DNA of 64,000 bases from the NCBI RefSeq assembly GCF_027579695.1, contig NC_083570.1:4433001-4497000 (forward strand), in the 5' to 3' direction. The first letter of the stretch is position 1; each line of letters begins with the position of its first letter. The translations under genes were made by a program, and so were the position numbers. Source of the stretch: Neoarius graeffei. Its lineage: Eukaryota > Chordata > Actinopteri > Siluriformes > Ariidae. Below are positions 5,550 to 44,518 of this stretch, one piece after another. The notes beneath the pieces are model-generated. The model was not told where the DNA came from. It saw only the letters and a program-made list of their open reading frames with translations, and did not search any database.

Positions 5550-5580
<31 letters not shown>

Positions 5581-12323: not shown

Positions 12324-13732
12324 CAGGGTTCCCGCGGGGTTTTAAAAGGTAGTTAATTAAAATAGGCTAAATTATGGCCAGTAAAAAGTAGTAAAAGGTA
12401 GTAAACGTAATCTGACGTGGTAGTAAATTTTTTTTGACCCCCATCCAACTGGGCCTATGTGTTTTCTAATTCGTTTAATTAACCTGCATGCCATAATATC
12501 CATAAATTACTACATTTGGGCGAATTTATTTTTATGTATCAAGGAGGACCGCAGTGAGGAGTTGGTGGCGCATGCGCATTGAATTCCAATAACGGTCGAA
12601 TCCAGTATAAATTTATACCAGAGATTGTTTAGTACAAGACTGACTTTGTTTATACGGCTCTAGTCGAATCTATCTGTTCACCCGACTGGCAACATCTGCA
12701 CGAGAATTAAACAATGGGGAAATGCAAATTTTCAGACCTCTGGCTGGAGGAACCTGATTTTAGAGACTGGCTAAAGGCGGTAGATGGCAATCGGCGAGAG
12801 GCGTTCTGCATAGTGTGCAAGAAAACTATTAGCATTACCTGGATGGGAGTGAAGGCTATTAGGTCCCACATGGAATCGAATATCCACCAGGGAAGGATGC
12901 GTGGACGAAATAGACAGCTACCTCTGTCGTTGTTTTGCCGAGGCACTTCTGCGACTACTACGGTCACAACGCCCTCAATCTTGCCTGCTCCGATAAACCC
13001 TGAATCCACCGTTGGTAATACTACCGCCATGGCTACCACCAGCCTTTCAGGACATCAGACGGTCATAACTGGCACTGACTCGCTTGAGGCTGAGGTACTG
13101 TGGTGTTTGGATTTGGCGGTGAAACACCACTTCTTCAGTTCTAACGAAGGCATCGGAGATCTGTTTCGGAGGATGTTCCCGGACTCCCAGATCGCCAAAT
13201 CATTTGCTTTGGCCAGTGACCAAACCAGGTACATGATTAAATTTGGCATTGCCCCTTATTTTAAGAGGCACCTGGTCGAGGCATTAACTAACACCGGACC
13301 TTTTGTAATTATGTTTGACGAGAGCATGAACCAAACGTCCAAGAGGTTATGGGCCACAGTTTCACAGTTCAATAAAATTATAAATTATATGTGGAAGTTT
13401 GTTTTCTTTTATGCAAATGTGCATTACTCCATGTGTAGCCCTAGCAATGGGAGGTTCTATTAGGCGTCCAAAGGGAAAGAGTTACACTACCGGTACATTC
13501 AGATTTTCTTTCTATCTTGTCTCATCAATCCAACTCTTTGGGTAGAGTTGTCACAAACTTGTATGTAGCACATTCACTTGGACTAACACATACACTCAAA
13601 GATTACCTTGTTAAATTGTGAGAAAATGTCCAAATCCAAATTGTCGCTGTGGTAGTAAAAAAAAATTGTGAAGGTAGTAAAAAGGTAGTAAAAAGGTAGT
13701 AAATTCAACATAAAATATCTGTAGGAACCCTG
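12324..13732 (+). mobile_element. Short hAT-type element with a BED-finger gene
   Basis: The ends match as CAGGGTTCC read inward from both sides. Near both ends lies a cluster of GGTAGTAAA-type repeats: three or four at 12370-12430 and four at 13652-13702. Subterminal repeats of this sort are typical transposase binding sites in hAT elements. A clean 8-bp target duplication is not visible. The element is 1409 bp, too short for a whole hAT transposase, so it is a deletion derivative that kept the N-terminal gene part. Confidence 0.7.
12714..13463 (+). CDS. Truncated hAT transposase (BED finger plus N-terminal region)
   Basis: 249 codons from the ATG at 12714. Residues 1-55 form a BED-type zinc finger (FCIVCKKTI ... 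IRSHMESNIHQ; C-x2-C and H-x4-H). A Ser/Thr/Pro-rich linker follows. Next comes a hAT N-terminal region (about residues 125-215) with SLEAEVLWCLDLAVKHHF, FPDSQIAKSFAL and VIMFDESMN. The last aspartate block corresponds to the first catalytic Asp region of hAT transposases. The frame then runs into unrelated AT-rich sequence and stops. A full hAT enzyme is roughly 600-700 residues, so more than half is missing, including the dimerisation domain. The long open frame suggests recent decay, or retention as a DNA-binding repressor-like product; the latter is speculation. Confidence 0.75.
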   Translation: MGKCKFSDLWLEEPDFRDWLKAVDGNRREAFCIVCKKTISITWMGVKAIRSHMESNIHQGRMRGRNRQLPLSLFCRGTSATTTVTTPSILPAPINPESTVGNTTAMATTSLSGHQTVITGTDSLEAEVLWCLDLAVKHHFFSSNEGIGDLFRRMFPDSQIAKSFALASDQTRYMIKFGIAPYFKRHLVEALTNTGPFVIMFDESMNQTSKRLWATVSQFNKIINYMWKFVFFYANVHYSMCSPSNGRFY

Positions 13733-14805: not shown

Positions 14806-16194
14806 TGTAACTCTGCCTACCTGGGTAGGCTTCTCGTTGCTATCTAATAAATCTATTGCATCTAATAGTCAACTGAGTTCTTATCCCTGGGTTCGAACAG
14901 GAGGACTGCAGTAGTGAACACTTTTAACACAGTGAATATTATAGTATTACCGCCACACCACACAATAACACAGACAACAACAATTAAGGTTTATAAAAAA
15001 TTATTCTGTATTGTTACATTTAACTCAGAAGAGGATCAATAGAAGTCAATATCTAAATCTAAAATGGATCTAGTTTCAGTGTGCAGAGGGAATTATGACG
15101 TGATGGAAAATGAATGTGAGGTGTGAAACAAATGTGGTGTAGTACTACATGAATATCTGTAATGTGGAACGAATACTGTGTAATATCAATATATAATATC
15201 AATGAATGTTATGTAGTGTTAAATAAATGGGGTGTGATGTTAAATGAGTGTGGTGAAATGTAAATTTAGTGTTGTGTAAAGCTAAATGGCAATCACAGTG
15301 AAATTAGGGCATTCGGTGTACCATACCCAAAATCAGGATATAAAGGAAGAAGTATCAATCAGGTATAATAGGCACAAGACAATATAAAGTAATGATATAA
15401 AATATTTGCAGTCTATACAATCGTTAAACAGGCACAGAATAGTGTGAAATATATGGAAAATTTAAAATCTAAATCTACCCTTTGTTGGATCCAATAACCC
15501 CAAAAGCAAAAGGAATAAAAGAAAGATTGTCCTCTGAGATCTCAGGAAAAAAAAGAAAAGTGTCAAAACAAAGTATCAAAAGGGATGAAGAAAGTATCTC
15601 AAAAAACCTATGCAGTTCTGTACTCCGAGTTCGTAAGTATCAGTCCACTCCTACCGCTCTCTTCAACATCAATCCTTCGAAGGCGAATTATGTGGCAGCA
15701 ACAGAGTTAGTCCAGGACCAGGGCAGAATCCACAAGTCGTACGGCATTTGGGGGGACCAGCCAGGATATCTTTCAATTACAAATGGAACAAAAATCTTCT
15801 GCGGGAACCAAAATCTTGGGGGATCACTATTGTTGTGTGGGTATGTTGTGTGGATATGTTGGTGTGGTGTGTGTGTAATCAAAATCTATTTATTCATTTG
15901 ATCGCTAAATCTATGCTTTATCCGTGGAATCAATGGGGCGTCTGGTCTGAGGAAAAAAAAAAGATGAACGCTAGACTATGTGTTCGATGCTTACGTTCCT
16001 TAGGGAGTGTCTATGAATATCCAACCACGGTCATAGCTAATACCTATGGGAATTCCCCAGGGAGCGTCTGTAAATATCTCCCTACCCCCAACAACAACTT
16101 AACAGCAAAGGGGTTATACACTATGGACAAGTGAAAGGGTTGATGTATGAAAAATCACTGACTGAATGTGGTGCAATAACTCATGGGGGTTACA
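14806..16194 (-). repeat. Left (3') LTR of the Gypsy12-like element
   Basis: 1389 bp. On the plus strand it starts TGTAACTCTGCC and ends GGGGGTTACA. It matches 31973-33358 along its full length with few differences. Open frames inside it, such as the one near 15482, are present in both LTRs but look like chance frames. Confidence 0.93.
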
Positions 16195-16275
16195 CTCTCC
16201 CCCTCTAAACCGCATGAGTCTCTGCATGCAAGTAAGGCTTAACAGAGTCCTGTAGTGCCTGGAGCAGTGTAGTTT

Positions 16276-19200
16276 CTAATTCTCAACCAGTGAGCTAATT
16301 GCTAAAATTAGGGGTTTCCCTAACTCATTATAAGTTAGTCTTTGGGGCAGATTCTTGGGCCTACTTGAGCGTCTGACTTCAGGCTGTTCTTCTGGCATAA
16401 CCATATCATCAGGGTTCTCAGGCTCTGAACTAGGGAGAGGTATGGACTCTGGTTCTGGTTCATGGATTTCTATTATGACATGGTCTGGGCTCTGAGCTCT
16501 GGGGGGTGAGATAACAGTGTTCCTCTGTGGAGGGGTTACTTGAGGCTCAAGATGGGCTTCAACACTCTGGGGCTCAGAGACGACTTCAGATGTCTGTGGG
16601 ACATTTGTGGGCACTTCAACATGTGGCCTGGGCTGTGGCCTGACAGCTGGTTCAGGCATACGGTCTCTCCGCAGCATGAAGGGTCCATTAGTGACAAAGT
16701 CTGGCACTTGGGTTACTGGATACAGCTCGTCCATGCTGTCTGAGGAGTCACCTTGCAGGCCATCTGGACATCCTGGCTGGTCTTTGTCTCCTTGGGCTCT
16801 AGATCTCAGTCTCCTGGTGACCACCACATGAGGATCTGGCTCCTCTGCATCCTGCAGAGGCAAGAATCCACATGGCAACAGAAGGTCTCTGTGTAAGGTT
16901 CTGTGGGGGCCGCTTCCAGTTTCAGGCTTTACGATGTAAACTGGACTGTCACCAATCTGTTCTATCACCACGTGGATCTTGTGCTCCCATCGGTCGGCCA
17001 GCTTGTGTTTGCCCCTGAGGTTCACATTCCGGACAAGAACTCTGTCTCCTATAAGGAGTCTTGCAGCTCTGACCTTCTTGTCAAATTGGACCTTGTTTTT
17101 GTCCCTTGATTTCTGAGCACTCTCAGTGGCCAATGAGTAGCTCTCTCAGAGGTGCTGTCGGAGGCTTTCAACATACTCTGAGTGTGTCTGAGGGTTCCCA
17201 GTGTCAGGACTGATTCCCAGGATGAAATCTACAGGAAGTCTTGGCTACCTTCCAAACATCAATTCATATGGTGAGTAGCCTGTCGTATCATTTCTCATGC
17301 AGTTATAGGCATTCACTAAGGGCTTAACAAAGTCTCTCCAGTGGTGTTTTTCTTTATCTTCCAAGGTTCCCAGCATTCCCAGCAGTGTCCGGTTAAATCT
17401 CTCCACAGGATTTCCACGAGGATGGTATGGGGTTGTTCACACTTTAGTTGCTCCTATGACTGCACAGAGTTCTTTGATGGTTTTGGATTCAAAATCCCGA
17501 CCTTGGTCACTCAACAAACGACTGGGGAACCCGTAATGCACAATGAAGTTCTCCCACAGGGCCTTAGCGATGGTTTTTGCCTTTTGGTCCCTTGTAGGTA
17601 CTGCTACTGAGAACTTTGTGAAGTGGTCTGTGATTACAAGTATATTCCGTGTGTCATGACTGTCTGGTTCCAGAGACAGGTAGTCCATGCAGATGAGATC
17701 AAGGGGGTATGTTGTGGCGATGCTCTCCATCGGTGCAGCTCTTTGGGGGACAGCTTTCCTTCGGAAGCAGCGTTCACACCTCAGGCACTTCTCTTCAACG
17801 TCCTTGGCCATGCCAGGCCAGAAGAATCGGGCACAGGCAAGATGTAGGGCACGCTCTGCACCAAGGTGGCCAACCTCGTTGTGTATGCCATGTAGAGCTC
17901 TCTGGTGAAACTGTTTGGGCAGCACCAGCTGATACACAGGCCTGTTGTGATCAACCCACTTGCGGTACAGCACTCCATCTTTCAGCTCCAGCTTATGCCA
18001 CTGTCATAACAGAAGCTTTACTTCAGGGTGTTCTGAGCGGACTTCTGTGTGACTGGGCTTTGCCACTCTCGCTACAAGGCCAACAATGTGACGAATGTGT
18101 GGATCATCTGCTTGTGCCCTGCGCCAATCGGCTGATGTCATTGTTGGTATAACGTCTTGACCAAAGGAATCAGGGACTGAGGATGCATCAATGGCAAGTG
18201 ACTCAGCGATAACTGCGTCTGAGCAGGGTTCATTCATGGAGACCACATGATGATGTTGGCATACGGCGGAGAGCACCTCGCAGGAGATGGTGGGTCCAGC
18301 CATATCCATGAACCTTTCCTTTAGGTCTTCTACTTTGTCTCTCTCTTCGACAAAGGCGTCATCTTCACAAGGGGGATCTTGAGGTCAACGGGACAGCCCA
18401 TCAGCATCTCCATTGGCCTGGCCTGCTCTGTACTTGATATTGAAGTGGTAGGTGGAGAGGGCAGCTAACCATCTATGACCAGCAGTATCCAGTTTTGCCG
18501 ATGTCAACATGTATGTAAGGGGTTATTGTCTGTCAGGACAGTGAACTCACCCCCATACAAGTAGTCATGAAATTTTTTGCAGACTGCCCACTTAAGGGCT
18601 AAGAACTCTAACTTGTGAGTGGGATAGTTCTGTTCACTCTTTGAGAGACCTCTGCTGGCATAAGCCACTACTCTGAGCCATCCTTCTTGCTCTTGATAGA
18701 GGGCAGCGCCCAGCCCCTGCCTGCAGGCGAGTGTGTGGAGAATGTAAGGCAATTGTGGATTGGCAAAGGCAAGAATGGGGGCAGAGGTCAATCTGTCAAT
18801 CAGGGTGTGAAAGGCAGTGTCGCATTCAGGAGTCCACTCATCTCCAAACGGAACATTTGGGTTGGGGTGACTCTCTGTACTAGGCCGTTTGTACACTTTC
18901 CCTCTTTTCCTTTCTGGGTGATAACCTGCTGTCAGATGGTTTAATGGTTTGGCTATCTTTGAGTACCCTTCAACAAAATGTCTATAGTACCCTGCGAAGC
19001 CTAAAAAACATTTAAGCTCTTTTCTGTTAGAGGGGCGGGGCCAGGTTTTGAGGGCTGAGACATTGTCAGGGTCAGTGTGAACTCCCTGAGCGTCTACAAC
19101 ATGACCTAAATAATTGACTGATGTCTGGAAAAAGTGACACTTCTCTGGGGATAGCTTCAATCCATAATCTCTCAAGCGTGTGAGTACTTTCATTAATCGA

Positions 19201-19388
19201 GCTTCATGTTCTTCTAACATCTCTGAGAAGATGATCAAGTCTTCGAGAAAGACAAGCACTTCATTCAGATGTAGATCACCAACACACTTCTCCATAAGGC
19301 ATTGCAAAGTACTTGGCGCATTTGTCACACCTTGGGGCAGCTGGTTGAATTCGTAGAAGCCTAATGGACATACGAATGCAGTCTTGTA
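16276..19388 (-). pseudogene. Gypsy12-like pol, 3' half (reverse transcriptase end, RNase H, integrase), fossil
   Basis: On the minus strand, about 19388-18870 carries the later reverse transcriptase blocks (CPLGFYEFNQLPQGVTNAPS, the LVFLEDLIIFS active-site region, FLGFAGYYRHFVEGY). About 18860-18504 carries RNase H (HKLEFLALKWAV, FTVLTDNNPL). 17973-17437 carries the integrase zinc-binding region (HNEVGHLGAERAL ... CLRCERC) and the start of its catalytic core (LDLICMDYLSL, VITDHFTKFS). 17133-16276 carries a C-terminal integrase part ending in a Pro/Glu-rich tail. It is a broken copy with several interruptions. Confidence 0.85.
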
Positions 19389-19912
19389 CACTGCAAAAAA
19401 GGCCCTTCTAGAAATAAGCCTAATATTCCTAAATCTAGCCAAATTATCTTGTATTGAGCAAAAAAATCTGCCAGTGGGGTAAGCAAAATTTACTAGGTTA
19501 GAATTCTTAAAACTAGCAAAAAAGCCTAGTCACTGGAAAATCATAATGTGACATAAAACTAGACAAAAAGGCTAGAATTTGAGCAAACTGAGCTTATTAC
19601 AAGCAATACAATCATATTTATTTAAGACAAAGTAACTTAAAATGAGAAATTTAGTCTCTTAATTAGCTGACTGTTAGAATTTATATCTTGAAATAAGATT
19701 AACAACCAGCCAAAATATTCTTAAAATAAGCATTTTATTATATTAATTGAGCTGACTTTAAGAATTAATACCTTGAAATTATTTTAATAACTAGCCAAAA
19801 AAGTTTAAAACAAGACACAATATCTTAAAACAGCACAATAAAAATAAGCTAATTCATCTCAAATTAAGGCACCAGAAGCATCTTGTTTTTAGCATTTCTT
19901 TCTTTATTATGT

Positions 19913-20025
19913 GAACCGGCATGGACCCCTGGTGGAAAAATCAGAGTAGGCTACTGTATATCTAGCAGGTACCATGTTGAAATAGCTTAGCACTAAAGTT
20001 TCAGAGTTAGCTAACAGTTAAATGT
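19913..20025. repeat. Internal direct repeat of the CACTA element, copy 1
   Basis: Shares with 23009-23154 the blocks AACCGGCATGGACCCCTGG, ATCAGAGTAGGCTAC and TTTCAGAGTTAGCTAACAG, in the same orientation. The other copy has about 40 extra bases in the middle. One copy lies downstream of the accessory gene, the other in its first intron. Confidence 0.85.
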
Positions 20026-20271
20026 TTTGAGAAGATATGCAGCTATTCAAGCAATATAAAAACTAAAAAAATAAAAACACAACAAAACAGTTGCAGCTGC
20101 TGGTTTGAATATTTGACAAAAACAAACATGTCTTTTACACAGGTCTCTCAAACAGAAAAAAAAAAATCTCTTACTTGTTCCATGAAGGACCTCAGCAAAC
20201 ACGTGGCCAACATGGGCCTGACTCTCAAACTCTTTTTCTTTTGGTTGTTAGAGATGTCAATAGTCAATCAC

Positions 20272-23200
20272 TCAATGAAGGACCTCCACTCGGCAATGGC
20301 TTTTTTTGTAGGAACCAGTTACATCTCGGTCATGGAGGGAGTCCTGGAGAACCTCAGTTTGCAATACTGAGAGCAGTGTGGAAATGAACTTTGGATAAGT
20401 GAGGTGCAGGCAATAGTAATACCCCAAGAGGTAGAGCAGGCCTTCATAAAACTTCTGTCTGTCAAAGGTGGTCACTGGTGTGTTTCCAATGGCGATCAAG
20501 CAGTTACCCTCACAGACGAGCAAAACTGGACAGGACAGGGGTCGCTGGCACAAGTATGCATCAGGGTCTTCTGAAGCCTATAGATGACAAGAGCGTAAGT
20601 TTAGGAAATCACAAGAAACAAAAACCTTGTCCTGGACTGGGATTCTTCCAAAGAAAAACACAACAATTAGGTCACTGACAACACATAAATGACAGAGGCT
20701 TACCACAAAATAGAACTGAAAAAATAAATACTTTTAGTCTTACCGTAAGGACATGGAAAACAGCCTCGCTGCTTGCGCCCAGCCTCTTAGGTGGCGTAGT
20801 GCTGGATGGGAAGAGCAGTGGCAGGGCTCTGAACACAGCAGTGGCATGTTCCACTAATTTGAAAGAAAGCACAACACAAGGCAGTATGAGTACCCACTCA
20901 TCATGAGATCTCAAAATATAAACTTGGACAAATCAAGGTATACAGTGACCTCACCTCCATCCAACATTTTAGGTGGTTTCATCACTTTTTTCATCACCCC
21001 ATAAAATTGGACCTTTGAATAAAAGTCGTCCCATCTATTTCTCATCTCTGAGACGTAGTGGGCATTGTTTGGCTGTATTATCCTTTGCAACTCATCTAGG
21101 ACCTGAAAGACATTCAAAAACGTGTAAATTATTTCCATTACCGGTCCGTCCAACAGGTTGATGACTGATGTCTCTTCAATTAAAACCTAATGGTTAAAGG
21201 CCCCTAATGACCCCAAATCATGTACTGAAAGCTACAAAAAGGTCAGGACTGGTTACGAGGGGATTTACTTACATGATCCAAGTCTTTGAAACAAGAATAT
21301 GCCTCCAGAATCTTGCTGGGTCGGTCTTGCTCTTTGATAGTGTCAGAGGTTATAAAGCATCTTCTTGACTCAAACTCCAAGTTCAGCAGATGGGTTACTG
21401 AAGCTTTGTTTGGCTTCTTGGACCGGCACATCTCTTGCAGTGTATTGTAGTGCCTTGCCTGGCTTTTCTGGCTGTCCAAGACGTCACCCAAACCACCTAC
21501 AGGAATTATATTTTTTTTAAAAAAGGGTTAGAGGTGTAAAAAAATATTAGGTTTCCCCCCTTTTTTTGTTCATAGAGTATTGCATTGTTCAAATACTAAC
21601 ATCCCTGGACTTAAACTTTTGCAAGGCCACTTACCCATGGCCTGTTTTCTTTTGTTTGAAAATTGAGCATAGCAATCTCTCCCACACATCTCAACTTGAC
21701 AACTTGAGACTAGCTGCTACTTCCCACAAAAACTTGTGTAAACAAAGTGTATTAAGTTTGATACATACCTTCATCACTGCTATCCAGGTGTTGCATTGGG
21801 GTGCTGACTGGGGACCGCTCAAGAATGACCGTAGAAGCACTTGAATCCCCGTCGTAGTCACTTGTAGTCATTTCCCCGACATCACGACGTTGTTTCTTTG
21901 CAGGAGGAGTGCCCTTCTTGGGGCTTCTAACATTCGATAGCCTCTTCATGAGCTTTTTGGCAACATGCTCCTGCCATAAAAACAGTAAAGATTAAAAGAT
22001 GACACATGACAATGTTTTCACAATAAAAATAAAAACACAAGCAGGGAGATGAAAATGCTTACCCAGTCTTTTATCATTGGATAATATTCCACCAATTGCT
22101 TTGCCATGGCATTGACCTCTGGTCTGGTGGGGTATCTGGCATCTTCTGTGGTTCTTGCAATTGAGATCATATTACACATAGTGTTTCTAATGAGCCGGCA
22201 GAAGAGCTCCTTGGATAAATCCACGATGTTGTCAGTCCCCAGCCGTTTCTGCTCGAAGAAGGAGCGTCGCACCTGTTCAAGTTCACTGTCTGTGTAAACT
22301 ATGTATTCTGGGCTGGACACAACCACAAACTTGGAAGTGTTGGGCTCTTCTGGTGAAAGACCACTGCCTCCAGTCGCTGATGGTTGTGGTAGTTCAGCAG
22401 CAGTTTCCACCTAAAATACATTCACAATTACACATTACATCGGATAACTTTCCATCATAAATATATTCCCACACAATGAGTTTTTTACACTGTAATAATC
22501 ATATGGCCCAGCCAAATTGTAAAACCCATACAACATGACACCCCTGTGCAATAACAATAAACTATTATATAACTGCCTTCGAAGAACAGAGATCATGCTG
22601 AATTTAGTTTAAATATGGATTTACACTATTGTTACACTGACTGGTCAAGCCTTTTTTTCTTTAACCAAAAAATGAGCTTTGGCTAAAATAAATACAATTT
22701 TAAAATGAAAATATTTGTAAATTGATACTGCCACATAGGCCTGTGGATGCACTTAACTATATTTTATCATTATCTTAACTTACCGTTTCATCTTTATTCA
22801 CAACAAGCCATATAGCCCGCAGCCTGTGAAAATTTTCAGGACCAGGAAACAGATCCTTGATGTCATCTTGAGTAAGTGAAGGCAGTAACTCTTCTCCAAT
22901 CTTGGCAGCTATAGAAAAAAAAGTAGTTAGTGCCAAGACACTGAGCTTATCACTGACTTAATTCAGCCTTGTGTCCATAAATCCTATATATAATATATTT
23001 TAAGTGAGTAGAACCGGCATGGACCCCTGGAAAAATCAGAGTAGGCTACAATATATCTAGCAGGTTCCCTTGTTGTACTAGCCTGCTAGTTAGCTATAAG
23101 GTCCAACTGTCCTGGAAACTTAGCACTAAAGTTTCAGAGTTAGCTAACAGTTAAATAATTTCCTCAGTTAAACTTCATGCACTTTTGCAAAGATAGCATC

Positions 23201-23436
23201 GAAAAACTAATGTTTGACAATAAAAGGCACAATATTAACCGTAGATACATGCACAAGGATATTTTTTGAGATTTACCATGCTAGCTAGTTAACTTCATGG
23301 ATTTTAGCACACAACCCGACCTAGCAAGGCAGGTTAGACACATAAAATTAAAAAAGTTAATGTTAATAAAACAGATAACTTAACCATATATCGTACCTCT
23401 AAGTGTAGCAATTGCAACTTCGTCCAGTTGATCCAT
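20272..23436 (-). CDS. CACTA accessory gene: SAM-like protein, 8 exons
   Basis: Exons on the minus strand by GT/AG signals and phase: 23397-23436, 22784-22908, 22063-22410, 21769-21970, 21273-21496, 20955-21186, 20744-20853, 20272-20577; about 528 residues. All junction phases agree. Residues 14-55 look like a SAM-type helical domain (GEELLPSLTQDDIKDLFPGP). The middle has a conserved-looking block (RYPTRPEVNAMAKQLVEYYP, then KKLMKRLSNVRSPKK). A basic, then Ser/Asp-rich linker follows, and the C-terminal part is unassigned. Fish genomes hold many such 'SAM domain-containing protein 3-like' models, which I take to be CACTA accessory genes; that link is inference. A seven-A run at 20301-20307 probably adds one base, changing the last few residues before a nearby stop. 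A TnpA-like DNA-binding role is possible but not shown. Confidence 0.75.
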
Positions 23437-24127
23437 TACTGCGGCGCGATTCCAAACACTGTCTGCTTGCAAAAATAGCTGCTTGCATTTGAAATCCAAC
23501 GACTGTCTTAGCACTCTTCTCTACAGAAAATTGCGCGAACACATTTGGAATATACCATTTTCAGGGTAGGGTCGGGGGTGCGGCCGGCGGGCCAAAATAA
23601 CTTAGGATTGCCTCTATATTTTTATTGAATTGAAATTCCTTTAGATAATTTCACTAACTTATAATACATATTAAGCCTGTGTATAAGATAATTAATTAAT
23701 GACTGGTTGCTACTCTTATGAGACCCAGAGTTATGGTCACTTCCCCTTGATGACCTAATGTGATAAACCAACCAGATCGCCCCAAACATCCAAAAGTACA
23801 GGTGATCTAAGAAGTGCAGTGTCATGTCAACAAGCCAGCTAGTTTAGCTAGCTAGACTCTACAACCATGATTTGGCGCTGTGTAATCCGCTTTGTTTTTG
23901 TAGGTCTAACCCTCAAATCTTTATTGAGTCATATAAATTCGGCTCATAGTCGTAGTCCAGATTTCCGTGTTGTTTGTGGAATCGATGGTTGTACCAAAGA
24001 ATATCGCATCTACAACTCACTTTGGTATCATATTTGAAGAACCCATTCTGAACACTTTGACAGTGGCAGCAGCAACTTAAGGAGGGAAGGAAGGACAGCA
24101 ACCTCAAGACTGGACCTCACATCAGCA
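23437..24127. promoter_or_regulatory. Shared divergent promoter region of the CACTA genes
   Basis: The two CACTA genes have start codons at 23436 (minus) and 24128 (plus), only 691 bp apart and pointing away from each other. Both 5' ends must start within this stretch. It holds a GC-richer patch (about 23570-23600, GGGTCGGGGGTGCGGCCGGC). No clear TATA box is assigned. Confidence 0.6.
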
Positions 24128-24614
24128 ATGGATCGAAACACTAACAACGTGTGGGCATATAGGTAAACCACCTGCGTTACTTAAGTCAGCGGTTTTCAAT
24201 TGGGTAGGCGCGTGTTGCGCATCCATTGGGAGTGCCAAAAGGTCCCCAAAGGCAAGCGCAGCATGGCTGGGAAATAGCTTAAGTATAGCCTACGGGGAAT
24301 GCATGAAAAACAAGCCTGCCAGCCTCTGAGAATGTAGTTTTATTGTACTTGCGGTGGTTATTTGTTCTACTGCGTATGGCATGCACGAGACCGAGTAGAA
24401 TCACTGAACATTAATCGCCATCAAAGCCTTCACTACAACTGTGCATTTCAATGTGTGCAAAAATAAACTGTTAGGTTAGCCTAAGGTCAAACTCACAACA
24501 TCTATGAAGTGTGGCTTTATTATTGCAGGTATTTGACAGACCCGATTATAAAGCATATGGCTGATTTATTAATCCACCTAAAGTAGCCTTTACTTTGGTG
24601 CATGAAAGTGCACC

Positions 24615-24645
<31 letters not shown>

Positions 24646-27600
24646 TTTCAGAACTAATGTTTTGCCAATGGGTTTCTTTTTCAAATTGTGACTTAAATGC
24701 ATGATGTCAAAGTTATAGTAGGCTATTGGGCCAATATGATGGGTTGTTGTAGTATTGGATCCAACCCCAGTTATGGGTTTGTTTTAAATAGATACCTTTT
24801 ATTATTCCAGTGTAGCAAATATATGTTGATGCACAAAGACTGCCTTTTATGAGTTTGGGCCCCTGCTCTTCTAATATTTGCATGTCCATGAATACAGGCC
24901 AACTAATGCAATGGGGGAGAACAGAGAGAGTCCAACAGAGGATGCAGTGGAGAACGCTGAGCAACCAATGGAGGATGCAATGGTGGAAAATGTAGAGCGA
25001 CTAACGGAGGATGCAACGGTGGAGAACAGAGAGCAACCCTGTCCTGATTTTGTCATCCCAGAGCATTTTGGTGCTTTTGACAATTCAGTGTCATTGTACT
25101 CTGGCTTTGACAACAGCACCCTCACCTCTCCATGGCACCCTACTATGTCCCAGACTTGTGACTGTACCATGCTAACAACTTTGAATATACCAGATGTTCC
25201 AAGTGAGCCTGCAGATGGCCCCTCTGCATCACACCAATCTGAGGTATGCATATGAATAGTTTTCTGAGCACACAATAACAATCTTTTATAATGCTCCATG
25301 TATCTTCTTGTCATTAGATTGTTCTTGTGTGTGTGTTGGTCAGGGTCAGTAGTTGATATTTTATCTATCTATATACCACGGTTGGCCCTAATAGCCCCCT
25401 GCTCCCCCACAATCAGCCAATACTGCTATTAGAGCAGGTTCATTTCTTCAAACACATTACCTGCTGCACTCCAAGGTTACCGCAAACATGTATGCAAGAT
25501 ATTTTGTTATGTATGTGGCTTGGTCACTCTGAAGATGAAGAAGAAACACTTGACAATTCATAACAATAGTAGGAGCAGTGAATCTTATCCTCTTGGTCTT
25601 CAATGCAAATACTACTTGTCACTCCAATCATTAAAGCTCCAAGATCTATCTGCAGCATAAAGTGTAACTCATTGTATGCGGATGCTATTTCTTCAAGAAA
25701 AATGAAATGACCAAAAAATACACATCTGATGACTGGTTTTTTTTTTTGTTGTTGTTAAAGGATGACTCCTGCCAGGACAGTCTGACCAAACAAGCTACTG
25801 CTATTGTGTTGACTGCAAGAGAAAGACACCATCTTTCGCAGGTCTGTCCGCATGCAACATTACTATATAATTTATTCTTTGGCTGTGTTGATCATCTGCA
25901 ATGTCAAATCTGATAATTTGATAATATTTACATTTGTCCATAAACTGTCACAGACTTATTTATCATCATGCTTTATTGCTCTGTCATTCAATTGGTAAGT
26001 TCATTGTTTCCACAGTTTTTTTTTTAAAATAATTATTATCATTTATTCATTAATCCTCATTGAAAGGGGGGTGTAATCTCTGTCTCTGTAGAGGGTAGTA
26101 CAAAACGATTCTTTTATATATATATTGGACTATTGTAATTATATCTTATTTGTCTTTTTGGGCCTTTTTTTCAGACTGGTGTGAATGAAGTTGTGGCTGC
26201 AATGCAACAGTACCAAGCTTTGTTGGTGACCAATCTGAGGAGTCGGCTACAAAGAGTATTCCAACAACACCAGGGAAGTGAACTTGAAAAGGAGGCTCTG
26301 GCGGTATTTGACCAGTTGGAGGATCCGTTTGCCTCTGTTTCAACAACGTACAGGCAGGACTGTGTGATTAAGGACTATTTCCATTTTGTAGAGTCAGAGG
26401 AAGTTACTGTTGGGTATACTGCTTGCTTTCTTAAAAAAGGAGCAAAAAGAGTCCTCTCTACCAGACCCAAATGTTTTCAGTATGTTCCTCTGATCAGAAG
26501 TCTGGAGCAGTTATTGTCCCATCCAAAAGTCCTGGCAATGATAGATGAGCCACAGAAATACAGAAGTGGGTATTTGTATGACAGTACAGATGGTGAATTC
26601 ATGAAATCACACCCCTTATTTTCTGCCCGACCCTCTGCCTTACAGATAATCCTTTACTCTGACGAAATTGAACTTTGCAACCCGCTTGGGTCTCATGCTT
26701 CCAAGAATAAGTTGGTAATGTTTTATTATACACTTGGAAACATTAATCCAAAATATAGATCAAAACTGGCTTCAATTCGCCTACTCGCCATTGCAAAGAA
26801 GAGAGAACTCTCTGAATGTGGAGTTGATGGAATTTTGGGAAGGCTGCATGAGGACCTAGTAAGGCTATACGAGGGTGTTAGAATTCAAATTGGGGATGGT
26901 GAACGTGAAATATATGGAGCATTAGTTTCTATATGTGGGGACACTTTAGCTCAGCATGAGCTTTGTGGTTTTAAAGAGGGTGTTGGTTTTGTTTTCAAGA
27001 AATGTAGGCAGTGTGAATGTACATTTGAGGACATGCAGTTGTATTTTGATGAGGATTACTTTGAAGAAAGAAACATAGAGAGACATATGCGGCAGTGTAG
27101 TGATATTGAGAAGGCCAATACTGAGTATCTCAGAAACAGTTTAAAAACTACATTTGGGATCAACAGAAGGAGTAAACTGGTAGAATTCCCAGCTTTTAAC
27201 TTGATCCAACAAACACCCCAAGACATCATGCACGTAATTCTGGAAGGCATTGCCCCATTAGAAATAAAATGTGTGATGAAACACTTAGTACTTTTAGGAC
27301 TACTTGACTTGGATGTTCTCAATAGTGTGTTACTTGCATTTCCCTACTCTCTACTTGATGTCAGAGATAAACCAAGCCCTATAAGCTATAGCACATTAGC
27401 ATCCAGTGACAATAAATTAAAGCAATCCTCAGGCCAAATGATTGTTCTACTTAAAATTCTTCCATTTCTGATTGATAGAGTTAAAGGTAATGAGTACCAC
27501 ACAGTCATTCTTGAGCTGATAGAAATAGTTCAAATTTTGTTTGCTCCTGTTATTGGTCTACAGACTATCAACAAATTGAAAACACTCATTGAACAGCACC

Positions 27601-28316
27601 TAACACATATGAAGAACCTTTTCCCAGATAACAACATCACTCCAAAGCAACATTATTTGATTCATATTCCATCTCAGATTAAGCTACTGGGACCAATTGT
27701 CTGTCATATGTGCATGAGATTTGAATCAAAGCATTGCTTTTTCAAACAGTGGGCTTCAAAACTAAACTTTAAAAATGTTTGCAAGTCCTTAATAAGGCAT
27801 AATCAAATGTATGAATGCTGTCAGAATGTTAGTAGTTCCGAACACCCTATTTTTTCAAATGATTGTACATTGGGACCGATATCAGAAATAAGCAACATGT
27901 CATACTTAAAAGAAAAAATGAGAGCCTTTCTTGGAAATGATGAGGTAAACCATGCAGTGTCTGTAAAATGGATTAATCTAAATGGCAACAAATACATACG
28001 GGAAAAGTCATTAATTGTGAGTGATGTTAATTCTGATCTGCCAGAATTTGGACTTTTAAGACATATCTATGTGATTAATTCATCATTGTTTTGTTTTGAG
28101 TTCATGCAGTACAACACCATTTGTTATAATAGAGATTATATGGCATATCAATTAGAGATCCCAAACTTGGCACAAGCAACTGAACTGATATCTGTCAATA
28201 ACCTTGTAGATTTCACTCCGTATTACAGCTTTACTCACAAGGATATGGTCTTTGTCCCAATGAAATATTACCTCGGAGATGTGATTGGGCTACACAAAGC
28301 CTCATCTGATGTATAA
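24128..28316 (+). CDS. CACTA/EnSpm transposase (TnpD-like), 4 exons
   Basis: Exons 24128-24162, 24898-25243, 25761-25841 and 26175-28316 join in phase to about 867 residues. The ATG at 24128 opens a 35-base exon ending at GT. Residues 12-127 are acidic with short TEDA/VEN-type repeats. The large last exon carries the enzyme. Features shared with plant TnpD / Transposase_21 proteins, in order, are: LYSDEIELCNPLGS (Asp about 317), SICGDTLAQHELCGF followed by C-x2-C (Asp about 410), QDIMHVILEGI (about 503-513), and PKQHYLIHIPSQIKLLGP with MRFESKH (about 645-674). The catalytic assignment is inference from spacing. No stop or frameshift was seen. An AATAAA signal lies at about 28482. It is a candidate active enzyme. 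Confidence 0.82.
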
Positions 28317-28796
28317 AAGGCACACTGTTATTCTGCTATTAGCTGTGGCTCATATTCAGTCATGGAAATTTGGCAAAAAGTTATTGAAATGTTATAAAAT
28401 TCATTTAGTGGGCAACACAGAACTGGTTAATAGCTTTTTCTAAATCAGTCAACTGTATTGCATGTTTGTCTTGTTTGACAATAAATGAATTATTTTTTAA
28501 AAAATTGCTGTCATTTCTTAAAATTCTTAAATTGAGAAGTTGTGCAAGTGGTCTTAATCTTAAAATAAGGAACATAATCTTCATCCTTTGCTTGGATAAT
28601 TTGCAAAACATGTCCATACCTTGTTGCTAGTTAAATTGAGCTTGATCTTAGCTGGTAAATCTTATTAAGAAAAAGTTAGATATATTTTCTCAAAATGAGA
28701 CTATTTTTCTCATGTGAAAAATGCTTGTCAAGATTCTTCTTCTTGTTAGACTAAAAATAGGACAAATTTTCTAGAAAAAAGCCTTTTTTTACTTTC

Positions 28797-30263
28797 TTAA
28801 AAATCTGTTTTTGCAGTGTATTTATCTTCTTCAGCCACTTCAACTTGATAATACCCAGACTTGAGGTCCATCACAGAAAACCATTTGGCTCCATTTAGGG
28901 CGGTGAAGGTCTCCTCGATGTTCGGGAGGGCGTAAGCGTCTTTGATGGTGCGGGTATTCAGCTTTCTGTAGTCAACACATAGACAGATGGTTCCATTCTT
29001 TTTCCGTACAACTACGATCGGGGAAGCAAATGGGCTTTCTGACTCTCGGATGATTCCTGTGTCAAGCAGTTTTCTCAGGTGCTGTTTTACAGCTTCTCTG
29101 TCACACGGGTGGATGGGCCTTGATCTTTCTTTGAATGGGGTATCATCTTGTAACCTAATGTGATGCTTCACTACAGTGGTATGGCCGTATGTCAGATCGT
29201 CTGTGGCACAAACTTCAGGGATACTGTTAAGTTTCTCTGTGACACGCCTTTTCCATTGTTCAGGGATAGGGGAATTCTCAAGGTCAAATCTGAGTAGGCC
29301 CGGAGATGAGTCAGGAAGGCCAGAAGCACGTCGGTCAGGATCGAGTGGGGTAACACAGTGAGCTGCTGATAGCTGTGCAAGAATGCTCTGTTGATGTAAC
29401 GTTATGTCATGGTCACTCAAGTTGCGCAGGATGATGGGGACTTTACAGCTGGCTTCACTTGGGACATTTACAAGAGCAGACTCAAGGAGTACTCCACCTG
29501 GCAATGGACAGTGTTCATGTGGCTCAAGTACAAAGTCAGTGTGGTGGGCAATCTTTCCTACCCTGACAATGCCAGTGGTGCATAGCTTCTGCTTAGCAGG
29601 TATGGTGAGGGTTCTCCGTCCTTGCAGCTTCACAGTGTGTGGGTGTTTTGTGGTCTCATGGGTCTTTGCAATATGTAGGAAAAGCTGTGCGTAGCTGCCA
29701 TCAGAGTGAGCTTGGAAAAGGGATTTGAGGCCATCATGTCCAATGCCGTGTTGGTAAAGTCGGTCAAGGACGTTTGTTCCAATCAAAAGGGGAATTTTAC
29801 TGTTTAAGTGATGTTCTGGAACTACAAGCACAAGAGTCCTCAAATCTGCCTTCTTTCCAGTTATGGTCTGGGGAAAGAAGATGTTCACTTCCACATAGCC
29901 CAGATACGGGACATTCTGGCCACCTGCACCCTCGATTTCAAGAAGAGTATGGATAGGTTGGATAGGGAGAGGAGACAAAAATTCATTGTGGAAAGACTCT
30001 GAGATGGTCGTAACCTGTGAACCAGTGTCCAGTATGGACTCACATGGCACACCTTCAACATAAACTGATGCTGCACAGCGAGGGCCAATAAGTCCTGAGG
30101 GTAAGGGAGGAATGACATGGTAGTTTGTTCCAGCGTGTCTCTGCGTAGTGGCTTTACATTCTGCTGTGGTGGGACTAAAGTTACTTAAACTCTCAGCTCC
30201 TGGGCGTCCCTGTACAGGCGCTGTCAGCAGTTTAAATGAGGGTGAAAGGTGTTCTGTTGGCAT
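28797..30263 (-). pseudogene. Gypsy12-like pol, 5' half (protease and reverse transcriptase start), fossil
   Basis: On the minus strand, an aspartic protease region (CESILDTGSQVTTIS, about 30035) is followed by a linker. The first reverse transcriptase blocks come next (SPFASPIVVVRKKNG, CVDYRKLNTRTIKDAYALP, FSVMDLKSGYYQVEV) and run up to the CACTA insertion. The frame overlaps the end of gag by about 40 bases in a different frame. That is the arrangement in which this family is known to use ribosomal frameshifting. Confidence 0.85.
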
Positions 30264-31867
30264 CTGAGACGGTCCTGTCTCTCCCTCAGTTCAGCTTTCT
30301 TCTGGTACACCAGCCCTGGGTTAGCATTGTGGGAACACTTGGCAGCGATGTGCCCATCTCCACCACACCTGAAGCAGAACCATGCCCTCAGCATCCCTGG
30401 AGACACTGCAGTCTTTTGGTGAGTGTAGTTGGCTGGAGGACAACCACTGCGTTCGATGTTACTACTTTCTCTTTCAACTTTTGCATGGTGTGACAATATT
30501 TCAACTTGCCTCGTTAATGCCTCAATTTTCTTTTCCAGCTCACTGTTGTCTTGGGTTTCCACCTGTGCATCCAGCTTCACTGGTTTCTTTTCCTGCTTTG
30601 AGTCCTCACTTTGTTGGTGCTGGGCCATCCGGACAGGGTCAACATCGTAAGAGGGCATGCCAAGAATGGAATGGGCGTGTGCTGCAGCTCTAGTGGTTCC
30701 TAAGTGCTTCTTCATACGCTCATACTTGGCGGGCCTACGGTCTTCTTCAGTTCTCAACATCAGGAGCAGGTCAGGGAATGATGGTGGGTTCTCTTTCTTG
30801 GGCTCCAGCTGCAGGCTCATGATGAGGTTCTGGTCCCAACAGCCCCTGCAGAACTGGCGGAGTAGCAGCTTGCTTGCATCGTCACATGAGGCTCCCCCTC
30901 TAGACGTGGCTTTGGTGAGGAGTGTGTGCAGTCTATTTAGATACATGGAGGGCTTTTCACCACTGTTCTGGCTACAGTTCAGAAAGGCTGCAAACAATTC
31001 TTCCCTGTCTTCCACCACGCCAAATGCAGAGTCAAGGTGTGTGACATAAGTGTCTGGTGATGAGGTTATGCCGAGTGGCTTTACTACATCAGTAGCGGGG
31101 GTCAGTAAACTTTCCAGGATCTTATGCACTTTTTGAGTGTCACTTAAAGAGGGGTCACTAATCAAGAGGTCAGCCTGGGCATGCCAGGTCTCATAATCAA
31201 CTTCACCATTGGGCCTTGGGGTGTGGCCAGAAAAGGTGCGAAGCCTGGGGTGATGGAGAGAGTGTAGTGGGGCAGACTCAGTGCGGATGACATGCTCAAC
31301 GATCATTCTCTGAATGTGTGGAGGGTTTACTACACTATCATCCATGTGAACAGGGCTAGCTGGAACACTGGGAGAGGGTGTACTGGGAATGTGTGGACTT
31401 GACATGGCTTGGTGTGTCATTCTGGGATCACAGGTGGTAGTGGGTGAGCTACGATCAGTATCTTTGGCAACTTGCAGTTCACCTTGAAGTGCTTTGAGGA
31501 AGCCTGCAGTGTTAGAACCTGCCACAGCCCTGAGTTCATACAAGTAGCGTTGAGCTAGTTGCTTTCCTGCCTCCTCTTCATACATTCCTCTTATGGTCCT
31601 GACATGCCATGTCTCATTGGGGTCATGTGGGCTTGCTATCCTGCCTAACACTATGGGGTCAATTTTAGTGATGGACTTATTTGATGAATATTCTATTAAA
31701 ACTCTACCCTGTGGCTCATTCTCTTTATCTGGTATCCTAACAATTTTACTAATATTTCCATTAATTGAAAATACCTGCTCTATTTCTTCATTGGTGTAGA
31801 TGTCTTCAATGCCTGTGGCAAAGAGGGATTTTTGTCCGTCGACACTAAAACGATCACAAAGATCCAT
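30224..31867 (-). pseudogene. Gypsy12-like gag with PNMA-type N-terminus and CCHC knuckle (fossil element part)
   Basis: 547 codons on the minus strand. The N-terminal ~90 residues (DLCDRFSVDGQKSLFATGI, then EIEQVF) resemble the N-terminal domain of vertebrate PNMA / ZCCHC12-type proteins. Residues about 215-390 form a capsid region of the same kind (RLRTFSG, YETWHAQADLL, KILESLL, FLNCSQNSGEKPSMYLNRL). A CCHC zinc knuckle (CFRCGGDGHIAAKC) lies near residue 505. It is known that PNMA genes were domesticated from a Gypsy12-type gag; this sequence belongs to that lineage by domain make-up. It is part of the interrupted retrotransposon, not a host gene. Confidence 0.85.
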
Positions 31868-31972
31868 TGCTTTGGGGTTGTGCTTAAGTTAAAAAGGTTA
31901 ACTACTGTGTATTGTGGGTAGGCAGGGTTAAACTACGAAAAGCAATCCTCCTGGCTGGCTCACCACTAATTA

Positions 31973-33358
31973 TGTAACTCTGCCTACCTGGGTAGACTTC
32001 TCGTTGCTATCTAATAAATCTAATGCATCTAATAGTCAACTGAGTTCTTATCCCTGGGTTCGAACAGGAGGACTGCAGTAGTGAACACTATTATATTATA
32101 GTATTACTGCCACACCACACAATAACACAGACAACAACAATTAAGGTTTATATAAAATTATTCTGTATTGTTACATTTACCGCAGAAGAGGATCAATAGA
32201 AGTCAATATCTAAATCTAAAATGGATCTAGTTTCAGTGTGCAGAGGGAATTATTACATGATGGGAAATGAATGTAAGGTGTGAAACAAATGTGGTGTAGT
32301 ACTACATGAATATCTGTAATGTGGAAGGAATACTGTGTAATATCTATATATAATATCAATGAATGCTATGTAGTGTTAAATAAATGGGGTGTGATGTTAA
32401 ATGAGTGTGGTGAAATGTAAATTTAGTGTTGTGTAAAGCTAAATGGCAATCACCGTGAAATTAGGGCATTCGGTGTACCGGACCCAATATCAGGATATAA
32501 AGGAAGAAATATCAATCAGGTATAATAGGCACAAGACAATATAAAGTAATGATATAAAATATTTGCAGTCTATACAATCGTTAAACAGGCACAGAATAGT
32601 GTGAAATATATGGAAAATTCAAAATCTAAATCTACCCTTTGTTGGATCCAACAACCCCAAAAGCAAAAGGAATAAAAGAAAGATTGTCCTCTGAGATCGC
32701 AGGAAAAAAAAGAAAAGTGTCAAAACAAAGTATCAAAAGGGATGAAGAAAGTGTCTCAAAAAACCTATGCAGTTCTGTACTCCGAGTTCGTAAGTATCAG
32801 TCCACTCCTACTGCTCTCTTCAACATCAATCCTTCGAAGGCGAATTATGTGGCAGCGACAGAGTTAGTCCAGGACCAGGGCAGAATCCACAAGTCGTACG
32901 GCACTTGAAGGGGGGAACCAGCCAGGATATCTTTCAATTACAAATGGAACAAAAATTTTCTGCGGGAACCAAAATCTTGGGGGATCACTATTGTTGTGTG
33001 GGTATGTTGTGTGGATGTGTTGGTGTGGTGTGTGTGTAATCAAAATCTATTTATTCATTTGATCACTAAATCTATGCTTTATCCGTGGAATCAATGGGGC
33101 GTCTGGTCTGAGGAAAATAAAAGACGAACGCTAGCCTATGTGTTCGATGCTTACGTTCCTTAGGGAGTGTCTACGAATACCCAACCACGGTCATAGCTAA
33201 TACCTATGGGAATTCCCCAGGGAGCGTCTGTAAATATCTCCCTACCCCCAACAACAACTTAACAGCAAGGGGGTTATACACTATGGACAAGTGAAAGAAA
33301 GGGTTGATGTATGAAAAATCACTGACTGAATGTGGTGCAATAACTCATGGGGGTTACA
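31973..33358 (-). repeat. Right (5') LTR of the Gypsy12-like element
   Basis: 1386 bp, the partner of 14806-16194. It ends GGGTTACA and is followed by CAGT, the target duplication. The Tc1-like host sequence then resumes. Confidence 0.93.
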
Positions 33359-38650: not shown

Positions 38651-41600
38651 TTATTCTGGATCACACAATCTCGCTGTAGAACCAGAAACCCAGGGGAGCC
38701 AGAGCCCAGCGTATAGAGGCTGAGTGAATGTGGTGTGGACTCTGTGGAGGAGCTTCATCGTGTCAGAGACGCTGTAGAAGGACAGAGTTCCTGCACTGTG
38801 ATCCACATACACTCCTATTCTGGAGGGTGATGGAACTCTGAGATCAGTCTTAATGTTGTTGTGCCAGAAAGAGAGAGAAGAAGAAGAACAACACCACAGA
38901 CTCCAGGACTGATTGTTGCCTCCAAACCCACACTCATTACCCAGTCCTTTCCTGCTGATGTCTTTATATGAGACTGATATGTACACACCAGCACCGCTCC
39001 ACTCCACCTCCCAGTAACAGCGTCCACACACACTCTCCTTACACAACACCTGCTCCCAGTAATCAAATCTCTCTGGATGATCAGAGTAACGCTGCGCTCT
39101 CCCACTGTTTCTCACCTCTCTGTTCTTCTCAGACAGAATGAGGTGACGATGTACCGTGTTGGGATCCAGAGTCAGATAACAGAAATCTAAAATAAGAGAG
39201 AACCAAACTCAACAATGTGAACATGTTGGGTTTAATTCACACAATCTATTTAAACGAAGAGAGAGTGTGTGTGTGTGTGTGTGTGTGTTTTAGACGTACA
39301 TTTCAGAAACTCTTCTTTGCTCTGTGGTTCTGGTCCTGAAATGATCTGAACTGCTGCAGTTGTGGAGAGTAAAATGGAAACATTAGTTTGTGTAAAAGAT
39401 GGAAAGAGTTTAAAGGTGCTGACTGCAAAGTTCTCTGAAATTAAAAAAAAAATTCTTGTGCATGACATTTTCCTCTCTCATAAGATCAAGATCATGCGGA
39501 CGAGGTGTAAACAGTTTGATGTGCTGAGAGTCACTTTTCTCCATTCGGAGACCGTTTTCCTACTTCTTGAGGTAAACAGTGTGGCCCTACGGAAACAGCC
39601 GAACACCAAGAGCCTTAACTAATGAGCATAACTCTGGGACTGCATCACACCAAGGTGGCGATGTGCAGAAAACATCATGACAATTAAAATTAAAAAATAC
39701 CAGCAGATGGCACGGTGGTGTAGTGGTTAGCGCTGTCGCCTCACAGCAAGAAGGTCCTGGGTTCGAGCCCTGGGGCCGGCGAGGGCCTTTCTGTGTGGAG
39801 TTTGCATGTTCTCCCCGTGTCCGCGTGGGTTTCCTCCGGGTGCTCCGGTTTCCCCCACAGTCCAAAGACATGCAGGTTAGGTTAACTGGTGACTCTAAAT
39901 TGACCGTAGATGTGAATGGTTGTCTGTGTCTATGTGTCAGCCCTGTGATGACCTGGCGACTTGTCCAGGGTGTACCCCGCCTTTCGCCTGTAGTCAGCTG
40001 GGATAGGCTCCAGCTTGCCTGTGACCCTGTAGAACAGGATAAAGCGGCAAGAGATAATGAGATGAGATGAATGAAATACCAGCAGATCGCATTACATTCA
40101 AATCCTGAAATGTATGTGCACGCGTTCACAGCTTCAAATGGTTTAAAGTCAGAGGAGGAGTTTTGCTGTGCTTGAGCGTATTTGTGACAAAAATAAGGGC
40201 TTTTTCTTCTCAATTTAGCCACAGATGTATTTATTCTTCTTGAAAAGTGTTTGGCAAACCGGCTACCGGATTTGGGACACTACGACATCCTGAATTATTT
40301 GACATTTGGGATTTGTAAACACACCAGAAATACTAAAGGCAGACAAAACTACAGGTGCCTACCAATATTCCGAGGTAGGTTTTGGGCCAGAATGTTTTGG
40401 GAAATTTCCAAAAAAGAAAAATTGTGCTGGTCGTTGTCAAACACAAAGCTTGGCCAGATGAACAAATCTGCAGTTACGATGATGTCATGTGAAAGACCCC
40501 TATAACTCCGTACTCAGGACTATGGAGTCGAGCCCATGCATTCTAAAGCTAACGGAGCAAAGAACTGGCCAGAATGATTTAGTTATCTGTCCAAAAAAAA
40601 AAGAAATGCCATCTAACCTTGCTCCATCTTGCAATTACACTCACTCGGCAGGCTTTCCTTTTCTTCAGCTTTGAGCTGAAGTGCCCAAGAGTGGCGGCGT
40701 GCATGTACGCAGAGGCTTTGCTCTCCTATGATGAACTAAATTTCGTTGTACATTTGTGCAGTGAGAATAAAGGCATTCTATTCTATTCTATTCTTTCCTG
40801 CTGGCTTTTAGGTGGTGGCAGAGCCGAGTCCACCATGTTTGCCCAGGCCGACTTGTCTTGGTGAACAGTAGGTCAAACACGCCCCATTGTGGTCACGTGA
40901 TATTCTTGCTCATTTGCTTCAGCAATTTTTGGAATTGTAAAATGCAGGACGCTTTTTATCTCGGCAAAACATTTACACACAGGACACAGTGTGTTTGTGC
41001 AGCAGCGAAACATCTCGAAACTCCAACAGGAACAGCAAGAGAACATTTTACCCAGAATTCAACTTTGCAGTCAGAACCTTTAAAGTGATCCAGTCAGTTT
41101 ATTCATTTTAAATCAGTGTTTTAGTTCAAAGTGTCGGGTGAATAAAGTGTCTGCAGAAAAGAAAGCAGGAGCATCGCTAAGAAATAACACATCACTGTGT
41201 TTCTCCAGCAGGAACAGCTCCTCTTACCATGTGGAGGGATTTTGTTGAATTCCTCCTCACAGAATTCCTCGAGTCTCTTTTTCAGATCTGAGAGAGAATT
41301 CCTCACTCCATCAAATGAGAGATGTTGATGGACAGTGATGCTGGATGTGTGAAAATCTGGTCTCTGAAATTGAGGAGACCGATGTCCTGAAGCTAAAACC
41401 TACAGAAAGCAAATGAAATTTAAAACCCACTTGTGATGTCAGACAGGGACATTTATTGTTCCCTTAATGAGAGGTGTTTTAGAGAGTGTGTGAGGAACAG
41501 CTGGCTCTGTAGATCAGACAGTGAGTGTTACCTGGAGGAAATGGATGTGATCGTGTGTGTGTGAAAGCTGCTCCAGCTCAGTGACTCTCCTCTGAAGATC

Positions 41601-42987: not shown

Positions 42988-43274
42988 TTTCCTGAAATCA
43001 CAGAGAGAGAGAGAGAGATCAGTTGTTTTTCTCCGAAATGAGGAGTTACTTCCTGGTTCTGTGTGTGAAAGAGCAATGGAGAGAGGAGGAGCACGAACAC
43101 AGAGAGATCATGAACACTCCACTATTAACCATTTCATCTCCCTTCAGTGCATAAATGTAACCTATGTAGCCGCACTGATTAGGATTAATTTCAGAAATAC
43201 ACACAGATAATGATAGCCAGATGAAACTTCATGAAACACTAAAGCTTTCTTGTAAGGATGGGTGGATTGATATC

Positions 43275-44220: not shown

Positions 44221-44518
44221 TGTGGCAGCAGGGACGTGGTCAAGCGTCGGTCTGTGAATGGAGGGCGGACTCAGGGAAGGTAAGTGGCGGAATCACTGCA
44301 CCTGACAGGAATTAACCTGTGTTTGTGTCTCTTCCCCAGTGACCGTGCCCTATAAGAGGAGAGGGAGAGCGGAGGAAGGGAGCTACTCCCCAACCTGGAT
44401 ACTTGTGTGCGTGCGTGTGTGTATGTGTGTAGTTAAAAGCTGAAAAGCTTCAATAAACGAATTTTTGAGAACTCAGTTCTGGCCTGCCATGCTCCACCCA
44501 CCTAGAACACTTGCTACA
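44221..44518 (+). repeat. 5' LTR of the Gmr1-like element
   Basis: 298 bp, TGTGGCAGCA..TTGCTACA. AATAAA lies near 44453. The same LTR stands at the same flanking site in duplicate B (63319-63606). Confidence 0.9.

Follow-up and report, generated by a model that had tools for sequence, protein, structure and literature searches.

The 64,000 nucleotides of Neoarius graeffei DNA analysed here (C2:4433001-4497000; the window in the following) contain at 19389-28818 an element of 9,430 bp, which very probably is a cut-and-paste DNA transposon of the CMC type (EnSpm/CACTA-like), young and near-whole, whose two genes are transcribed divergently. The element is a well-preserved member of an already known kind of transposon. 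Its left terminal inverted repeat (19389-19416, plus strand) has the core CACTGCAAAAA and becomes imperfect past it, and the core of the right terminal inverted repeat is found at 28808-28818 on the minus strand. Both cores, which an earlier note on this DNA had given as the ends, read inwards and are enclosed in an imperfect inverted repeat of 28 nt (75%). The TA target-site duplication of the same note is present as well and flanks the element on either side (19387-19388 and 28819-28820).

The transposase gene on the plus strand is of the size that had been predicted, with four exons coding for 867 residues without an internal stop and with GT..AG introns (exon 1, 24128-24162; exon 2, 24898-25243, containing a 36-bp coding tandem repeat at 24906-25038; exon 3, 25761-25841; exon 4, 26175-28316). 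The longest open frame comprises 725 codons compared to at most 208 in 500 dinucleotide-matched simulations, and thus is not a product of chance. Exon 4 encodes the catalytic-type residues D317 (26661-26663), D410 (26940-26942), C431/C434 (27003-27014), H458/C462 (27084-27098), and E511 (27243-27245), and downstream of them Pfam finds a DUF4218 domain (E-value 5.5e-8, and 6.9e-8 in the whole protein). The catalytic role of the D-D-E residues is assigned by position and is putative. In an alignment of six rows (the window, its full-length sibling on C1, and four older copies, of which L054 and others were covered in part), D410, C431-x2-C434, H458, and E511 are identical throughout. D317 is kept in five of the six rows, with L054 being gapped at this position and containing stops, and C462 is also kept in five, with L056 being gapped. 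Exon 4 has frameshifts or stops in all four older copies and has neither in the window and the C1 sibling.

The second, accessory gene is encoded on the minus strand by exon 1 (23397-23436), exon 2 (22784-22908), exon 3 (22063-22410), exon 4 (21769-21970, including a basic stretch that by eye resembles a nuclear-localisation signal), exon 5 (21273-21496), exon 6 (20955-21102), exon 7 (20744-20853), and exon 8 (20272-20577). The eight exons, their agreeing phases and the open frame agree with the previous description, and all seven introns are GT..AG, but the protein has 500 residues and the formerly given length of about 528 could not be reproduced. All ten introns of both genes are GT..AG in the C1 sibling, too, and the predicted introns would probably be spliced in vivo. 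Most long genome-wide matches to exon 8 end at residues 90-95 of 101, which fits a frame shift in the last accessory codons of the window. The C-terminus of the window protein indeed looks frame-shifted with respect to its relatives, and window and C1 sibling differ by a single base in a homopolymer of exon 8 near the gene end. A decayed older copy (L046, C9:55.07 Mb) aligns through to the end of the protein and has a stop and a gap close by. When older families were searched by tblastn, the accessory protein matched in pieces that largely track the predicted exons, some of them extending into an intron. No Pfam domain was found in it at E≤5. Such proteins are annotated in fishes as "sterile alpha motif domain-containing protein 3-like". 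Among the 15 of 310 literature matches listed there was no paper on a sterile-alpha-motif-like accessory gene in fish transposons, and among solved structures neither transposase exon 4 nor the accessory protein had a match at E≤5.

The start codons of the two genes are separated by 691 bp (23437-24127), which, judging from length and composition only, may serve as a shared promoter region. Many CTTAAAATAAG-like motifs are found in the left subterminal region (19389-19838), within which an 85-bp unit is repeated 2.1 times in tandem (19636-19815), and such motifs are also present in the right subterminal region (28499-28818). Another stretch is present in two direct copies within the element (19913-20028 and 23011-23161; 86.7% identical along 75 bp and fully identical along 38 bp), of which one is located downstream of the accessory gene and the other in its first intron. 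A blastn search revealed no further copies of the element inside the window, and an Rfam scan gave nothing at the gathering threshold.

Sibling copies and age of the family

Sibling copies were searched in the own genome (2.34 Gb in 38 contigs) with left-end and right-end queries, and the lists of matches are lower bounds. Other copies sharing both ends had been proposed as a check of the element, and eight young insertions were obtained, namely the window copy and those on C1, C9, C17, C6, C23, C20, and C25. Identical 2-bp flanks are found in five of the six copies that have both ends, which are TA in the window, C23, and C25, TG in C9, and AA in C6. TA is thus not required, and a strict TA target, as might be read from the flanks of the window copy, was dropped.

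Whole copies are scarce, because only two of the eight young insertions, the window copy and the C1 copy, are full length. The C1 copy is 98.96% identical to that of the window (98 mismatches among 9,402 aligned sites), but it has an interruption in the accessory gene and a changed stop codon at the end of the transposase. This changed stop was also considered as the ancestral state, which was dropped because all five short derivatives described below carry the stop of the window, although an automated tally had labelled the window as derived at this site. Besides the exon 8 base and an insert in accessory exon 2, the two copies differ by twelve small indels, all outside the coding exons. The insert is another transposon nested in the element. 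It is 1,526 bp long, has by eye the inverted ends TGAGGTATTTCAC...GTGAAATACCTCA, and is unrelated to the element and to the window. A derivative of the family itself was considered for it and dropped, given that its best match to the element is no better than E 1.8.

Five derivatives of 1.5 kb (C9, C17, C6, C23, and C20) retain a left piece corresponding to 19389-19954 and a right piece corresponding to 27866-28818, and all of them join position 19954 to 27866 across a match of 3 bp as seen by eye. The common junction implies a single deletion followed by repeated transposition, and the derivatives are now present on several chromosomes. C17 ends early within the right piece and thus is without the right end, and C20 is without the left end. 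Both outer ends are kept in C9, C6, C23, and also in the C25 copy, which fits a role of the subterminal regions in cis. The C25 copy (L043, C25:48462400-48464700) is rearranged, with an inverted 349-bp fragment of the left end located inside the right part of a derivative.

When seven copies were compared, leaving out C25 and dropping gap columns, each copy had between two and seven private substitutions (mean 4.7) in about 1.35-1.5 kb, and four sites were common to subsets of the copies, which corresponds to a star-like pattern. Neutral substitution rates amount to a few changes in a billion sites each year. At such a rate, the spread of the family would date back roughly one million years. 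Relatives of greater age are present in the same genome, with identities of 71-89% for the left end, 75-80% for the right end, and 65-88% for transposase exon 4 among the matches listed.

The window copy splits a minus-strand Ty3/gypsy element (14806-33358), in which it interrupts the gene for the reverse transcriptase. The long terminal repeats (LTRs) of this host are located at 14806-16194 and 31973-33358, and each is flanked by CAGT on its outer side. To the right of the transposon, the open frame matches positions 12-92 of the RVT_1 profile (29.2 bits, just under the cut-off of 29.6), and the frame to the left matches positions 90-204 (74.4 bits). The two pieces thus abut at the insertion. 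The two LTRs have diverged at 36 of 1,379 aligned sites (2.6%, Jukes-Cantor distance 0.027), and being inside the gypsy element the transposon must be younger than the gypsy insertion. The earlier note had supposed that the copy was active recently. For the family this is borne out, because the eight insertions, the star of private changes, the differing 2-bp duplications, and the gypsy host with LTRs differing by 2.6% together support recent activity. Concerning the host itself, its gag contains a PNMA match (E 8.5e-22) and weak RRM and zinc-knuckle matches, its LTRs are about 1.39 kb long, and its frames are further broken outside the transposon.

Constraint on the two genes and their divergent layout

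Ratios of nonsynonymous to synonymous substitution rates (dN/dS) were determined against older families, excluding the accessory tail and any codons close to a gap, a stop, or a stretch that matched poorly. They are 0.15, 0.25, 0.12, and 0.15 for the transposase (all four loci) and 0.12, 0.10, 0.21, and 0.14 for the accessory gene (four of five loci, L046 with only 54 codons; L045 has too few), although they are rough because dS is above 1 in five of the eight cases. At the level of sequence, these values show that both genes were under past constraint. A comparison of the two young full-length copies with each other gives 0.58 and 0.88, which corresponds to the drift that copies undergo after insertion.

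The layout of the genes was surveyed at 24 transposase loci, with six derivative or rearranged young copies left out and adjacent pieces merged by eye. On the accessory side, all nine exon 3 matches and 31 of 150 exon 8 matches were included; those left out are the C1 array described below and most of the short matches, none of which by eye lies within 40 kb of a listed locus. An accessory match is found within 40 kb at 15 of the 24 loci, and in all 15 the nearest one is divergent and upstream. Because two of the loci are neighbours on C6 the number of independent pairs is 14, all of them divergent. A second accessory match at C6 is on the other strand. The remaining nine loci have no accessory match within 40 kb, but this absence is weak since exon 8 scoring covered 150 of 748 candidates. 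The comparison of the predicted loci shows that the divergent arrangement of transposase and accessory gene is conserved.

The element would move by ordinary cut-and-paste transposition, with the DDE transposase cutting at the CACTG ends and duplicating 2 bp of the target on insertion. As its conserved partner, the accessory protein would most likely bind the subterminal CTTAAAATAAG-like repeats and/or aid transposase assembly or nuclear entry, by analogy to the second proteins of plant CACTA elements. The accessory gene has been little studied, and it has been a conserved and selected part of these elements instead of debris, which makes its role in transposition directly testable. A near-whole two-gene copy, an interrupted sibling, five derivatives, and readable targets, all in one genome, provide a clean start for the study of CACTA-type movement in fish.

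Classification and rival explanations

Several observations weigh against the CMC-type transposon proposed here or limit the evidence for it. A lone CACTGCAAAAA is not beyond chance, with six matches at no more than one mismatch compared to 3.1 expected, and the case thus rests on the pairing of the two ends, together with the duplications and seven further insertions. The flanks of the C1 copy, CA and TA, are mismatched. The ends read CACTG and not CACTA, the duplications are of 2 bp, and a 3-bp duplication as in classical CACTA elements fits none of the six copies with both ends. Transposase_21 was not found by Pfam in the transposase at E≤5, and the H(3-4)H motif is replaced by H458-x3-C462, in which C462 may be the ligand in place of the second histidine. 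The AlphaFold2 model of exon 4 alone has a mean pLDDT (predicted local distance difference test) of 34, which is too poor to test the fold. Outside the own genome, no relatives were found in viral_contigs (transposase exon 4 and accessory exon 8), genome_contigs (exon 4), and phages (tblastn), these scans of collections that are not vertebrate being able to detect close relatives only. In addition, the enrichment of CTTAAAATAAG-like motifs in the terminal 770 bp (13 compared to 1.85 expected, reached in none of 200 simulations; 0.82 per 770 bp in the middle of the element) is inflated, because the motif was picked after viewing the sequence.

The earlier note had described a near-complete two-gene CACTA-type element, and in the broad sense this description stands. 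However, given the CACTG core, the 2-bp duplication, and the missing Transposase_21 (and strict H(3-4)H), we do not call it a classical CACTA element, although it shares with those the subterminal repeat units near both ends and the second gene beside the transposase. Its ends beginning with 5'-CA(C), its duplication within the range of 2-5 bp, and its D-D-E triad with C(2)C placed between the last two residues are those of the CMC type in general. Based on ends, duplications, and residue order, the element is provisionally filed as CMC-type, EnSpm-like in the broad sense.

The CMC(T) group is described with the residue order D, D, C(2)C, E and with H(3-4)H (PMC12730594). The element is similar in this D, D, C(2)C, E order, in its 5'-CA..TG-3' ends, in the 2-5 bp duplications, and in the occurrence of accessory genes, but has H-x3-C for H(3-4)H and an accessory protein without recognised domain where that group has a TET/JBP enzyme. 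Plant En/Spm elements with ORF2/TnpA are alike in the DUF4218 transposase, the second gene, the subterminal repeats, and the cut-and-paste movement, but have a CACTA core, 3-bp duplications (PMC4158355, PMC8978399), and Transposase_21, which was not found here. SmTRC1 and other animal CACTA-related elements share the CACTA-type transposase, 2-bp duplications, CxxC, and the insertion into LTR retrotransposons, whereas their inverted repeats begin with CCC and not CACTG, SmTRC1 has a Transposase_21 match, and the description is of one main transcription unit and not of a divergent partner gene (PMC1636069). The EnSpm elements of fish in Repbase, like EnSpm-N6_DR of zebrafish, are also EnSpm-type and likewise occur in a fish genome as short derivatives with internal deletions, but EnSpm-N6_DR, compared here by its description, is a non-autonomous family of 346 bp (PMC3485254).

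It is improbable that the element belongs to another CMC(T) lineage with short duplications (Mirage-, ESTA- or Plavaka-like) instead of EnSpm proper. This would be in line with duplications of 2 bp and not the 3 bp of plant CACTA elements (PMC4158355), with the missing Transposase_21 match, with H-x3-C replacing H(3-4)H, and with the TA duplicated by ESTA elements (PMC12730594). However, the TG and AA duplications at C9 and C6 do not agree with strict TA targeting, DUF4218 is a domain of plant CACTA transposases (PMC8978399), and animal CACTA relatives duplicate 2 bp as well (PMC1636069). It is hard to imagine that the two genes are a domesticated host gene pair that only resembles a transposon. 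Two open, by prediction spliced genes with past constraint would be expected in that case, but not inverted ends, target duplications, an insertion within a gypsy element, sibling insertions and deletion derivatives, nor the near-neutral divergence between the two full copies. The accessory gene could also be a captured host passenger that is unneeded for movement, given that it has no known domain, that its copy is interrupted in the C1 sibling and that nine of the 24 transposase loci have no accessory match within 40 kb. The divergent pairing in all independent pairs and the low accessory dN/dS of 0.10-0.21 against older families make this very unlikely.

Chances are about even that the window copy is young but dead, unable to move by itself and left as a relic with ends that might at best be mobilised in trans, which would be compatible with the CMC-type transposon proposed here. 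On the window branch, transposase exon 4 has acquired five private replacements and one silent change, with three further sites unassigned, and three of the replacements fall at positions where the five relatives otherwise agree. The accessory tail looks frame-shifted, and the dN/dS between the two full copies corresponds to drift after insertion. However, the transposase is open without stop or frameshift, the splice sites of all ten introns are kept here and in the C1 sibling, the catalytic-type residues are intact, and the change in the accessory gene is limited to its last codons. The present activity of the window copy is therefore possible but unproven.

Accessory-domain relatives and surroundings of the element

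Matches to the exon 8 domain are not restricted to the transposase loci. On C1, at least 22 of them are found between 17.6 and 30.4 Mb, with identities of 46-50%, all on the minus strand and 21 without a stop. In L057 (C1:21849000-21858000), the accessory-domain gene is placed tail to tail with a neighbour gene (L057:3282-4019) that has at least 29 plus-strand matches at 85-100% identity and one minus-strand match on C1 at 91%. Compared to DDE_Tnp_1_6, this neighbour gives a weak match under the cut-off (E 0.0039). Because of the same strand and the spacing over about 12 Mb, the array looks like a segmental amplification and not like scattered transposition. In addition, about 100 short matches cover residues 56-93 of exon 8 on many contigs, often in open frames of 58 residues (150 of 748 candidates scored), and these appear to form a large family of related genes or transposons in which the exons are arranged differently. 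We regard it as a rather unlikely possibility that the accessory protein is a member of a large helper-protein family in this genome whose C-terminal domain serves several kinds of transposons, being divergent to CACTA-type transposases in one case and tail to tail to the weakly DDE-like gene on C1 in the other. If true, different kinds of transposons would have a helper domain in common or pass it between them, with the window copy as one of the few near-whole examples including the transposase.

The element and its gypsy host are surrounded by minus-strand frames with RING/B-box and PRY/SPRY domains at 778-1437, 38651-39208, 42358-43107, 55907-56494, and 61843-62499, of which two were scanned with profiles and the other three are alike by eye. 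These genes suggest a TRIM-like cluster of the type known from teleosts. Remains of other mobile elements are located at 3274-6273, 12711-13463, 44506-48910, and, on the minus strand, at 50543-51409 and 59364-60608. They comprise hAT-like frames (DUF4371, and a BED finger under the cut-off), a LINE-like reverse transcriptase (its RVT_1 match being under the cut-off), and, as judged by eye, a Tc1-like frame and a second gypsy-like element.

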